Assembly: GCF_021531475.1 (NCBI RefSeq)
Contig: NZ_JADYTX010000013.1
Location: 1-48,643, forward strand
Reading direction: 5' to 3'
Origin: Fusobacterium perfoetens
Lineage (GTDB): Bacteria; Fusobacteriota; Fusobacteriia; Fusobacteriales; Fusobacteriaceae
DNA: 48,643 nt
This document shows positions 12,348-16,831 of the stretch, in pieces. A program made the position numbers and the translations under genes. The notes beneath the pieces are model-generated. The model saw only the letters and a list, made by a program, of their open reading frames with translations. It made no database searches and had not been told where the DNA came from. Position 1 is the stretch's first letter; each line of letters begins with the position of its first letter.

Positions 12348-13376
12348 ATGGGAGTAAGAGAATTTTTAAGAAAAAAAGATGTTATCTTTAGTACAGAAAG
12401 GTATTTGATAGTTGCAATGAGTAATATGGCAATGGGACTTTTTTCATCGCTACTTGTGGGAACTATTTTAAAAACAGTGGGAACAAAATTAAATATTAGT
12501 TATTTAGTTGAAGTTGTATCACCACTTGCTATGCAAATGACAGGACCAGCAATAGGAGTTTCAATAGCATATGGTTTAAAAGCACCAGGACTAGTTTTGT
12601 TTGCTTCTACAATAACAGGAGCTTTTGGAAATAAAGTTGGTGGACCAGTTGGAGCTTTTTTTGGGACAATAGTTGGAGTAGAAATAGGAAAATTAATATC
12701 TAAAGAAACAAAAATAGATATAATTTTAACTCCAGTACTTACAATTTTAACAGGAATGTTAGCGGGAGAATTAATAGGACCAACAGTTGCAAGAGTAATG
12801 TCATCTTTTGGTAAAGTTATAATGGTAGCAACAGATTTACAACCATTCTATATGGGAATTTGTATCTCAGTTCTTATGGGAATAGCTTTAACTTTACCTA
12901 TAAGTAGTGCAGCTATTTGTATGATGCTTGGACTAAGTGGACTTGCAGGGGGAGCAGCTACAGTTGGTTGTTGTTGTCAAATGGTTGGATTTGCCGTGAT
13001 GAGTTTTAAAGAAAATGGATTTGGTGGACTTGCAGCTCAAGGACTTGGAACATCAATGCTTCAAATGGGAAATATAATTAGAAACTGGAAAATTTGGATT
13101 CCACCTACACTTGCTTCTGCGGTACTTGGACCAGTGGCTACAATAATATTTAAAATGGAAAATAGTCCTATTGGCTCAGGAATGGGAACTTGTGGTTTAG
13201 TTGGACAAATCGCTACAGTTGGTACAATGGAAGAGATTGGAAGAGGGGGAACAAATCTTTATCTTACAATTTTACTTTTACATATTGTACTACCAGCAAT
13301 ATTAACACTTTTCTTTGCTCATATAATGAGAAAGAAAAATTTAATAAAAGATGGAGATTTAAAACTAGAATTATAA
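12348..13376 (+). CDS. PTS EIIC-like membrane permease (PTS_EIIC_2 type), orphan
   Basis: A 342-residue membrane protein with about nine or ten hydrophobic segments, rich in glycine and small residues. The pattern FSSLLVGTILKTVG, PAIGVSIAYGLKAPG, GNKVGGPVGAFFGTIVGVEIG, LPISSAAICMMLGLSGLAGG and MGTCGLVGQIATVG resembles the PTS_EIIC_2 group (PF13303), annotated as PTS IIC although members usually stand without IIA and IIB partners. The substrate is unknown. AAGGAG precedes the ATG. No HPr, IIA or IIB gene adjoins it; the only PTS IIA in the window is 21 kb away. The run of three cysteines in VGCCCQMVG is unusual. It is monocistronic, ended by a hairpin shared with sRNA copy 1. Confidence 0.72.
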   Translation: MGVREFLRKKDVIFSTERYLIVAMSNMAMGLFSSLLVGTILKTVGTKLNISYLVEVVSPLAMQMTGPAIGVSIAYGLKAPGLVLFASTITGAFGNKVGGPVGAFFGTIVGVEIGKLISKETKIDIILTPVLTILTGMLAGELIGPTVARVMSSFGKVIMVATDLQPFYMGICISVLMGIALTLPISSAAICMMLGLSGLAGGAATVGCCCQMVGFAVMSFKENGFGGLAAQGLGTSMLQMGNIIRNWKIWIPPTLASAVLGPVATIIFKMENSPIGSGMGTCGLVGQIATVGTMEEIGRGGTNLYLTILLLHIVLPAILTLFFAHIMRKKNLIKDGDLKLEL

Positions 13377-13387
13377 AAAAATGTAAA

Positions 13388-13461
13388 TAAAAAAGAAGCT
13401 ATTTTCTGGGGGGATAGCTTCTTTTTTTCATTAGTATAACTAATGGGGAAAATATTATGAT
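13388..13461 (-). ncRNA. Candidate small RNA, copy 1 of a three-gene family (about 74 nt)
   Basis: Read on the minus strand, with the first base predicted near 13461. The 5' segment TCATAATATTTTCCCC is followed by hairpin CATTAGT-tat-ACTAATG and a terminator GAAGCTAT/ATAGCTTC whose loop contains CCCCCC, then TTTTTT. The upstream promoter has TATAAT and two TGACA boxes. No reading frame of note exists on this strand. C-rich unpaired segments that can pair with Shine-Dalgarno sequences are a known hallmark of regulatory RNAs, as in the UCCC-motif RNAs of Staphylococcus. The same hairpin read on the plus strand ends with seven T and can terminate the EIIC gene. Transcription itself is inferred. 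Confidence 0.68.
13389..13428 (+). terminator. Terminator of the EIIC-like gene (plus-strand reading of the sRNA copy 1 hairpin)
   Basis: GAAGCTAT (13395-13402) pairs with ATAGCTTC (13414-13421), extended by flanking A/T pairs, with a TTTTTTT tail. It begins 12 nt after the EIIC stop codon. Confidence 0.75.
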
Positions 13462-13467
13462 ACGTTT

Positions 13468-13501
13468 ATTATAGAGATGTTATATGTCACTAATATGTCA
13501 A
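13468..13501 (-). promoter_or_regulatory. Promoter of sRNA copy 1: two TGACA boxes and TATAAT
   Basis: On the minus strand, TTGACA (13501-13496), 5 bp, GTGACA (13490-13485), 11 bp, TATAAT (13473-13468). The boxes repeat every 11 bp, one helical turn. Neither box is at the normal -35 distance, so an activator is expected. Confidence 0.65.
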
Positions 13502-13548
13502 AAATAAAAAATTAGAAAAAATATTATTAAATAAATATTACAAAAAAA

Positions 13549-13618
13549 TAAAAAAGAAGCTATTTTTGGGGGGATAGCTTCCTTTTCATCCATATAATTA
13601 ATGGGGAAATATTATGAT
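13549..13618 (-). ncRNA. Candidate small RNA, copy 2 (about 70 nt)
   Basis: Minus strand. The 5' segment is TCATAATATTTCCCC (one T fewer than in copies 1 and 3). The first hairpin is CATTAAT/ATGGATG with a wobble and a mismatch. The terminator is GAAGCTAT/ATAGCTTC with a CCCCCC loop and TTTTTT tail. The architecture is the same as copy 1, and the differences lie mostly at unpaired or wobble-tolerant positions. Its 5' end can pair with the cas9 start region over 13 bp with one bulged U. Confidence 0.66.
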
Positions 13619-13624
13619 ATTTGA

Positions 13625-13658
13625 ATTGTACTAAATAAATGTGTCAAAACTGTGTCAC
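13625..13658 (-). promoter_or_regulatory. Promoter of sRNA copy 2
   Basis: Minus strand: GTGACA (13658-13653), 5 bp, TTGACA (13647-13642), 11 bp, TACAAT (13630-13625). The spacing is identical to copies 1 and 3, although the 11-bp spacer sequence is unrelated. Confidence 0.65.
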
Positions 13659-13689
13659 AATAAAAAAGTATCAAAAAAATGTTATAAAA

Positions 13690-13760
13690 TAAAAAAGAAG
13701 CTACTTTCTGGGGGAATAGCTTCTTTTTATTAGTATAACTAATGGGGAAAATATTATGAT
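13690..13760 (-). ncRNA. Candidate small RNA, copy 3 (about 71 nt)
   Basis: Minus strand. The 5' segment TCATAATATTTTCCCC and the ATTAGT-tat-ACTAAT hairpin are identical to copy 1. The terminator stem is GAAGCTA/TAGCTTC with a loop containing CCCCC and a TTTTTT tail. It lies nearest to ispG, transcribed away from it. Confidence 0.68.
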
Positions 13761-13766
13761 GGCTTT

Positions 13767-13800
13767 ATTATATCGGTACAATGTGTCAAAAATATGTCAA
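13767..13800 (-). promoter_or_regulatory. Promoter of sRNA copy 3
   Basis: Minus strand: TTGACA (13800-13795), 5 bp, TTGACA (13789-13784), 11 bp, TATAAT (13772-13767). This is the best-conserved box pair of the three. Confidence 0.68.
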
Positions 13801-13820
13801 AGAGAAAAAACTATAAATTT

Positions 13821-13849
13821 TTGAATAATATCATGTTATGTGATAAAAT
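13821..13849 (+). promoter_or_regulatory. Sigma-70-type promoter for ispG
   Basis: TTGAAT (13821-13826), a 17-bp spacer and TAAAAT (13844-13849), 41 nt before the start codon. It is divergent from sRNA copy 3. Confidence 0.6.
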
Positions 13850-13890
13850 ATCTTTATAAAATCTAAATAAAATATAGAGGTGCTTTAATT

Positions 13891-14934
13891 ATGAGAAAAA
13901 CAAGAGAGATAAAAATAGGTAATTTATATATTGGCGGAGAAAATCCTATTATTATTCAGTCTATGACAAATACTCCTACTGAAGATGTAGAAAAAACAGT
14001 GGCTCAAATAAAAGAATTAGAAAAAGCTGGTTGTGAATTAGTAAGAGTTACAGTAAACACAGAAAAAGCAGCAGAAGCTATAAAAGAGATAAAAAAGCAA
14101 ATAAATATTCCACTTGTGGCAGATATACATTTTGATTATAAGTTAGCTTTAAAAGCTATGGAAAATGGAATAGACAAACTTAGAATAAATCCTGGAAATA
14201 TAGGTGATGATGAAAAGGTAAGACTTGTGGTAGAAAAAGCAAAAGAATCAAATGTTCCTATAAGAATTGGAGTAAATAGTGGTTCTGTTGAAAAAAAAAT
14301 ATTAGAAAAATATGGAAGAGTAACTGCTGATGGAATGGTAGAAAGTGCTATGTACCACGTTAATCTTTTGGAAAAATATGGATTTAATAATATTATAATC
14401 TCACTAAAAGCTAGTAATGTAAAAATGATGGTTGATGCTTATAGAAAAATATCAGAGCTTGTTGATTATCCATTACATTTAGGGGTTACAGAAGCTGGAA
14501 CAGAATTTCAAGGAACAGTAAAATCAGCTATTGGAATAGGAAGTCTTTTAGTTGACGGAATTGGAAATACAATAAGAGTTTCATTAACAGAAAATCCAGT
14601 TGAAGAGATAAAAGTGGCAAAAGAAATTTTAAAAGTTTTAGGATTAAGAGAGGGAGTAGAGATAGTTTCTTGTCCTACTTGTGGAAGAACTCAAATAGAT
14701 TTAATTGGACTTGCTAAAAAAGTTGAAAAAGAGTTTGGAAATATAGAAAAAAATATAAAAATAGCTGTTATGGGTTGTGTTGTAAATGGACCTGGAGAAG
14801 CTAAAGAAGCAGACATTGGAGTTGCTGGTGGAAAAGGAGAGGGACTTTTATTTAAAAAAGGAGAGATTGTAAAAAAAGTTAAAGAGGAAGAAATTATCCC
14901 AGAACTTAGAAAAATGTTAGAGGAAATTTTGTAA
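13891..14934 (+). CDS. ispG: 4-hydroxy-3-methylbut-2-en-1-yl diphosphate synthase (GcpE/IspG)
   Basis: A 347-residue iron-sulphur enzyme of the MEP isoprenoid pathway that reduces methylerythritol cyclodiphosphate to HMBPP. The N-terminal TIM-barrel part contains [30 protein letters not shown] and [11 protein letters not shown]. The C-terminal part carries the [4Fe-4S] cysteines in [13 protein letters not shown] and [20 protein letters not shown]. This is the short bacterial form without the extra plant domain. AGAGGTG lies upstream of the ATG. No other MEP gene is in the window. It has its own promoter; the lipoprotein gene 63 nt downstream may or may not be co-transcribed. Confidence 0.96.
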
Positions 14935-16717: not shown

Positions 16718-16831
16718 GCCGTGAGAGTGATGGAGGTTTATGGCGTAAAGATATCGAACCGTGTCAGGTCTGGAAGGAAGCAGCACTAAGGTATGTTTGC
16801 GGGTGTAGATTCAAAGTCATTTTTACGGTTT
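16718..16831 (+). ncRNA. ffs: Signal recognition particle RNA (4.5S-type, bacterial small form)
   Basis: The conserved domain IV core GTGTCAGGTCTGGAAGG followed by AAGCAGCACTAAGG is present (about 16760-16792), with the GGAA tetraloop and the asymmetric and symmetric loops that bind Ffh. The ends pair: CCGTGA near 16719 with TTTACGG near 16822. The length of roughly 110 nt fits the short Gram-negative-type SRP RNA without an Alu domain. The exact ends are approximate. Confidence 0.93.

Follow-up and report, generated by a model that had tools for sequence, protein, structure and literature searches.

What are the three short, similar units that lie in tandem between a phosphotransferase system (PTS) EIIC gene and ispG in Fusobacterium perfoetens, and which regulator controls them? 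The units occupy positions 13800-13388, on the minus strand, of a 48,643-nucleotide stretch of DNA from this bacterium (contig NZ_JADYTX010000013.1 of assembly GCF_021531475.1; hereafter, the window), and an earlier inspection of the bare sequence (the sequence-only reading) had proposed that they are sibling small RNA (sRNA) genes. The explanation that we favor, to which we assign a probability of roughly 0.75, is that a two-component system for envelope stress has its noncoding arm in this array, which would operate like the CiaR-controlled csRNAs of streptococci, blocking translation starts via C-rich seeds.

The three tandem copies are present as the sequence-only reading described them, and the predicted transcription starts, A13760, A13618 and A13461, which are 142 and 157 bp apart, fall where that reading had placed them. 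Each unit consists of a direct repeat TGACAy-N5-TGACA (hereafter, the box), 11 bp, a TAyAAT element, 6 bp and the segment ATCATAATATTT(T)CCCC, followed by a short variable stretch, a GAAGCTA/TAGCTTC-type hairpin and T6. The predicted RNAs of copies 1, 2 and 3 are 70, 69 and 73 nt long, and their folds are far more stable than those of dinucleotide shuffles (z-scores of -6.65, -4.02 and -7.41, respectively). Conservation between the copies is a mosaic: the 5' seed of the putative sRNAs, AUCAUAAUAUUUUCCC(C), is 94-100% identical, the -10 element 83-100% and the box 75-88%, the 11-nt promoter spacer and the 6-nt discriminator show 27-36% and 17-50% identity, respectively, and the inter-unit spacers align no better than shuffled sequences (p 0.08-0.36), in agreement with the earlier statement that the DNA between the copies is unrelated. 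Because of this mosaic pattern, the apparent targets of selection are a binding site, a -10 element and an RNA.

The promoters themselves had been recognized in part. The -10 element is indeed conserved, but these are not ordinary sigma-70 promoters: with spacings of 15-19 bp, the best match to the TTGACA consensus of the -35 box is 2/6, and what is conserved instead is the box, a feature missing from the sequence-only reading, which has an 11-bp period and is always separated from the -10 by 11 bp; the aligned box sites share both the period and the spacer. A direct repeat with an 11-bp period at a fixed distance before the -10 is the classic layout of promoters activated by regulators of the OmpR/PhoB family. 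By their sequence, the array promoters fit this layout, with two direct half-sites replacing the -35. The repeat alone was found 4 times in the AT-rich 2.0-Mb genome, against about 3.4 occurrences expected, and therefore means little by itself. For the box followed 11 bp later by a -10, base composition predicts 0.06 occurrences, and 4 were found without a mismatch, in the three array units and at one site at the end of a contig; a reversed control pattern, with up to one mismatch allowed, produced zero matches in the window's genome.

We searched 98 related whole genomes, of which 7 belong to the window's genus (G000 to G006, with G000 being the window's genome); the search for the box plus -10 with one mismatch covered all seven genomes of the genus. 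The combination of box, -10 and seed was detected in 4 of the 98 genomes, all within the genus (3, 4, 3 and 3 copies), whereas the reversed control had no match in the 98 genomes, and a wrong-spacing control with a 12-base gap, in a scan of the named genomes, gave five scattered matches, none of them in this group. The arrays of the other three species (G002, G003 and G005) occupy the same gap between the EIIC gene and ispG as the array in the window; additionally, G002 and G005 each have one copy outside the array, next to a tRNA gene, and G003 has a diverged sibling elsewhere in the genome. In G001, G004 and G006, no array was detected by pattern and BLAST searches, which did not include inspection of the EIIC-ispG gaps. 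A box-driven unit with an unrelated RNA is located inside the tandem array of G003 (L175:1739-1880; L007:1776-1880).

Altogether, 14 distinct homologous units can be aligned. The 5' seed is near-invariant, and the terminator stem remains paired in 94.9% of the cells across differing sequences, against 44-76% when the partner strand is slid; changes on both sides of the stem are found in only 2 of the 9 pairs. Thus, the pairing is good evidence for a terminator, as predicted from the sequences, and the covariation is modest. The internal CATTAGT/ACTAATG hairpin that had been ascribed to each copy turned out not to be shared by the whole family: of the 14 units, some have it in a strong form and others in a weak form or not at all, and in units G002_3 and G005_3 a different hairpin takes its place. 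Two units of G003 are nearly identical, so the tandem duplication seems to be recent in places. With syntenic arrays in three other species, a near-invariant seed, a conserved terminator and a shared box, the notion of sibling sRNA genes is well borne out.

The same box precedes an operon that encodes an OmpR-family response regulator (Pfam domains Response_reg and Trans_reg_C) and a histidine kinase (HisKA, HATPase and HAMP) and is sometimes headed by a gene for a small secreted Spy-like protein. The regulator was found in all 7 genomes of the genus, and so was a box at its operon: directly upstream of the regulator gene in G002, G003 and G005 and, with one mismatch, in G001; upstream of the operon-heading Spy-like gene in G006 and, with one mismatch, in G004; and on the far side of an assembly break in the window's genome. 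In the latter case, contig C35 has the box at its end, and this end shares 15 overlapping bases (ATATTATTTTTGTTG) with that of contig C8, the one that carries the regulator gene (G000:C8:56184-56840); the junction is syntenic with G003, and the link between box and regulator is inferred across the break. The leader that separates the box from the response regulator gene in G002 and G005 contains a terminator-like hairpin of its own and a second promoter-like sequence (L116:5279-5495 and L117:5369-5586); judging from these elements, the leader may give rise to an sRNA itself or may act as an attenuator of the operon.

We infer a circuit that leads from a stress signal through binding of this regulator to transcription and pairing. 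The phosphorylated OmpR/PhoB-family regulator would bind TGACAy-N5-TGACA in place of a -35 box and activate each promoter separately; the acting regulator would be the one encoded together with the kinase in the operon that bears the same box. The two-component system, given its association with Spy/Metal_resist-like periplasmic proteins, would probably sense envelope stress. Under such stress, each unit would give rise to an RNA of about 70 nt that has its C-rich 5' seed (AUCAUAAUAUUUUCCCC) unpaired and ends in a Rho-independent terminator, and the seed would pair with GGGGAAA-type ribosome-binding sites and start codons, repressing translation, probably of envelope proteins.

Several observations weigh against this assignment of the regulator. 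The box and the regulator gene are on different contigs in the window's genome, and the genus has several other OmpR-family regulators, so that the assignment depends on the presence of the box at the promoter of the operon itself, where another regulator could be acting. Furthermore, the regulator and the kinase score best against the PhoB (TIGR02154, the best NCBIfam model for the regulator) and WalK models, above CpxR and CpxA, with all these scores below the cut-off; hence, envelope stress is deduced only from the Spy-like partners. These facts leave room for the most serious alternative, namely, that the sRNA genes are real but the box is read by a different OmpR-family regulator, such as a PhoB/PhoP-like phosphate regulator, with the Spy operon being a fellow client; boxes of the PhoB/PhoP type are also direct repeats with an 11-bp period, located about 10-11 bp upstream of the -10. 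We consider this alternative unlikely because the box is present at the regulator-kinase operon throughout the genus and, in other genera, at Spy-like genes beside regulator or kinase genes, and none of the box sites examined is at a recognizable phosphate-uptake operon. Two previously described regulators were also considered and rejected: ModRS belongs to a ccdA-trx-msrAB-modRS locus, unlike this operon, and the CarR motif is described as 17 bp long, AT-rich and located between -10 and +1 at radA, unlike the array box.

To survey the wider distribution of the box, a 33-position profile was run over the 98 genomes, with E-values that are rough. The top five sites in the window's genome (E < 2e-4) are the three array units, the operon promoter and an sRNA-like gene at C44:10034; since these five sites were in the training set, their scores are not independent evidence. 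The informative point is that, the regulator operon aside, none of the promoters of protein-coding genes in this genome reaches a comparable rank. The fifth site represents a second, unlinked sRNA-like family, also absent from the sequence-only reading (G000:C44:10034-10160, that is, L114:6035-6160; also L112:5777, L113:5591 and L115:6230), which has the same promoter box, a conserved 5' part (AATTTGTTCATAARACCTTTCCTTTTAAA; GUUCAUAARACCUUUCCUUUUAAA) and a terminator, and is located 3' of the same LemA-like gene pair in all four array-bearing genomes. In G001, which lacks the array pattern, the box is followed by yet another noncoding unit, which contains ACCCUACCC / ACCCTACCC and ends in a terminator (L123:5469-5610, contig C8).

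In other genera, the box is found before Spy/Metal_resist-like genes that adjoin regulator or kinase genes. In G026, it heads an operon of Spy-like, regulator and kinase genes, and the G010 contig that carries the regulator orthologue (C33; L306, L307) contains six box sites, several of them before genes for small periplasmic Metal_resist/Spy-like proteins. Against the Pfam Metal_resist model, with its cut-off of 29.2 bits, only the G010 protein passes, at 42.1 bits; those of G005 and G093 match it below the cut-off and the other partners show no such match, so the designation Spy-like is based in part on size, signal sequence and Met/His-rich composition. A weaker box is located upstream of a TetR gene in G005 and G002 (L120:4791-4823 and L305:1798-1830, respectively), and in G005 TolC-like and efflux genes come after it; the regulon may thus have a branch of protein-coding genes. 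In another genus (g13), a perfect-looking box precedes a microcompartment-shell-like gene (L252, L253, L254, L256, L258); this and some other profile matches probably belong to other regulators with a similar site.

A broader proposal, to which we give slightly less than an even chance, is that this is a dedicated two-component system whose direct regulon in the window's genome is almost entirely noncoding, consisting of at least four sRNA genes of two families and its own operon, such that the envelope-stress response would evolve in the genus by tandem duplication, loss and relocation of sibling sRNAs, not by gain of protein-coding targets.

The seed is complementary to GGGGAAAATATTATGAT, which comprises a Shine-Dalgarno sequence, spacing and start codon. 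Given this complementarity, the repression by FoxI of Fusobacterium nucleatum through a C-stretch and the reported lack of Hfq and ProQ in that bacterium (PMC11005410), blocking of translation start sites is the most likely mode of action of these sRNAs. The earlier suggestion that the C-rich segments block Shine-Dalgarno sites is plausible in view of the complementarity, but start regions that could pair are no commoner in the genomes that carry the sRNAs than in those that lack them. In a search of the window's own genome with the complement of the 16-nt seed, start codons with a near match (1-2 mismatches) include those of genes for a YitT-like protein, PlsY, an AEC-type transporter, LrgB and a MotA/TolQ-like protein; by eye, all are membrane proteins, which is suggestive only. 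With the sRNA loci excluded, complementary sites number 22, 15, 11 and 15 in the four sRNA-bearing genomes versus 18, 16 and 20 in the sRNA-less ones, and no target with up to 2 mismatches to the 16-mer is common to the four array genomes; both results count against the proposed pairing and, because the sites are as numerous in the sRNA-less genomes, we make no claim on specific targets. Autotransporter start regions were rejected as a shared target class, given that only one, in G005, fits.

With no validated target and a strong site repeated in several close copies, the boxes might be thought to serve mainly as decoys that titrate the regulator, with the short transcripts having no base-pairing role. 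This seems improbable: a decoy needs neither a conserved 16-nt transcribed seed nor a terminator with a conserved structure, and the seed is kept in the unlinked siblings as well. Even less probable is that the palindromes only terminate the flanking genes and were amplified as a repeat element. The palindrome of copy 3 lies 18 bp past the EIIC stop and could double as an EIIC terminator on the plus strand, and a terminator-like plus-strand site was also scored at copy 2, but this explanation does not tell why box, -10 and seed are conserved at constant distances, why there are copies at other loci and why the regulator operon has the box too. Finally, copies 2 and 3 can be read as ATG AAA ... 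TAG (9-10 codons), but copy 1 has ATA in place of this start codon and several homologues lack it, there is no Shine-Dalgarno sequence, and conservation is concentrated in the C-rich 5' segment, so that the encoding of a tiny peptide by each unit is the least credible explanation of all.

Coordinates in the window of the array components and the flanking genes
Feature	Position	Strand	Remarks
Copy 1, candidate activator box TGACATATTTTTGACA	13784..13799	-	direct repeat with 11-bp period
Copy 1, -10 TATAAT	13767..13772	-	11 bp 3' of the box
Copy 1, predicted sRNA, 70 nt	13691..13760	-	seed 13745-13760; terminator stem 13697-13723 and T tail
Copy 2, candidate activator box TGACACAGTTTTGACA	13642..13657	-	
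Copy 2, -10 TACAAT	13625..13630	-	
Copy 2, predicted sRNA, 69 nt	13550..13618	-	terminator stem 13556-13581
Copy 3, candidate activator box TGACATATTAGTGACA	13485..13500	-	
Copy 3, -10 TATAAT	13468..13473	-	
Copy 3, predicted sRNA, 73 nt	13389..13461	-	terminator stem 13395-13421
PTS EIIC (PF13303)	12348..13376	+	flanking gene, convergent with the array; outside the system, marks the conserved locus
ispG	13891..14934	+	flanking gene, divergent from the array; neighbor kept in all 4 arrays

None of the Rfam 15 covariance models reached its threshold in the region 13370-13890, where the top weak match scored 22.4 bits against a cut-off of 60. Elsewhere in the window, matches above the Rfam gathering scores correspond to a purine riboswitch (597-694) and a small signal recognition particle RNA (16732-16824). 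Because there is no Rfam match and the box differs from that of the csRNAs, the array is, by sequence, a new family of predicted sRNAs, with the twist that the best sites of the putative regulator in this genome are nearly all noncoding. If the proposed circuit is real, it constitutes a second, sigma-E-independent noncoding arm of the envelope-stress response in a deep-branching group; with the binding site and the probable regulator found together, the whole circuit is testable by removal of a single gene. Because the array is conserved in four species but has undergone duplications and losses, and in one of them includes an unrelated sRNA, it would also be a ready case for the study of duplication and divergence among sibling sRNAs.

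Among the known systems, the closest in working mode are the CiaRH-dependent csRNAs (Ccn) of streptococci, several highly similar short sRNAs per genome, some of them in tandem (PMC3091779, PMC8186281, PMC11478796). Their promoters, the strongest of the CiaR regulon, each carry a CiaR-activated direct repeat, TTTAAG-N5-TTTAAG (PMC3091779), and the RNAs contain an unpaired segment complementary to the Shine-Dalgarno sequence and AUG, followed by a terminator (PMC3091779, PMC8186281). The array shares with them several similar intergenic sRNAs, regulator-type promoters and a terminal hairpin, but because its box, TGACAy-N5-TGACA, is different, it is not a member of this family; it also comes from a different phylum with no shared sequence noted, its seed is at the 5' end and not between two stem-loops, and its partner operon is associated with Spy/Metal_resist-like periplasmic proteins.

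Within the Fusobacteriota, FoxI and FoxJ are sigma-E-dependent sRNAs of F. nucleatum that form a noncoding arm of the envelope-stress response, with FoxJ probably also repressing through a C-stretch (PMC11005410). The array resembles them in the C-stretch and the proposed role, and differs in that it consists of tandem siblings under proposed two-component control as opposed to sigma-E control. Identity with FoxJ was rejected, given that this sRNA of about 156 nt lies between der and ylmH, upstream of ylmH (PMC11005410), and not between the EIIC gene and ispG. The array promoter, with its 11-bp-period repeat and TAyAAT, is not obviously of the extracytoplasmic function (ECF) type, judging by these two elements.

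In enterobacteria, OmrA and OmrB, controlled by EnvZ-OmpR, are tandem sibling sRNAs, Hfq-dependent and present in two copies, with a conserved 5' seed. The array is similar in having tandem siblings with such a seed under a proposed OmpR-family envelope regulator, but is unrelated in sequence, has a different promoter organization and comprises three copies. The Qrr sRNAs of Vibrio, mostly unlinked, Hfq-dependent genes under sigma-54/LuxO control in quorum sensing, similarly include multiple siblings as the main output of a response regulator, as proposed here. The operon itself might be of the Cpx, Bae and Zra type, in that it encodes an OmpR-family regulator and a kinase with a HAMP domain; among the partner proteins, only that of G010 scores above the Metal_resist cut-off. 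If the proposed circuit is correct, the array is an independent parallel to the streptococcal csRNAs and the enterobacterial Omr RNAs, which would suggest that OmpR-family regulators have come to be combined with multiplied anti-start-site sRNAs more than once in evolution.
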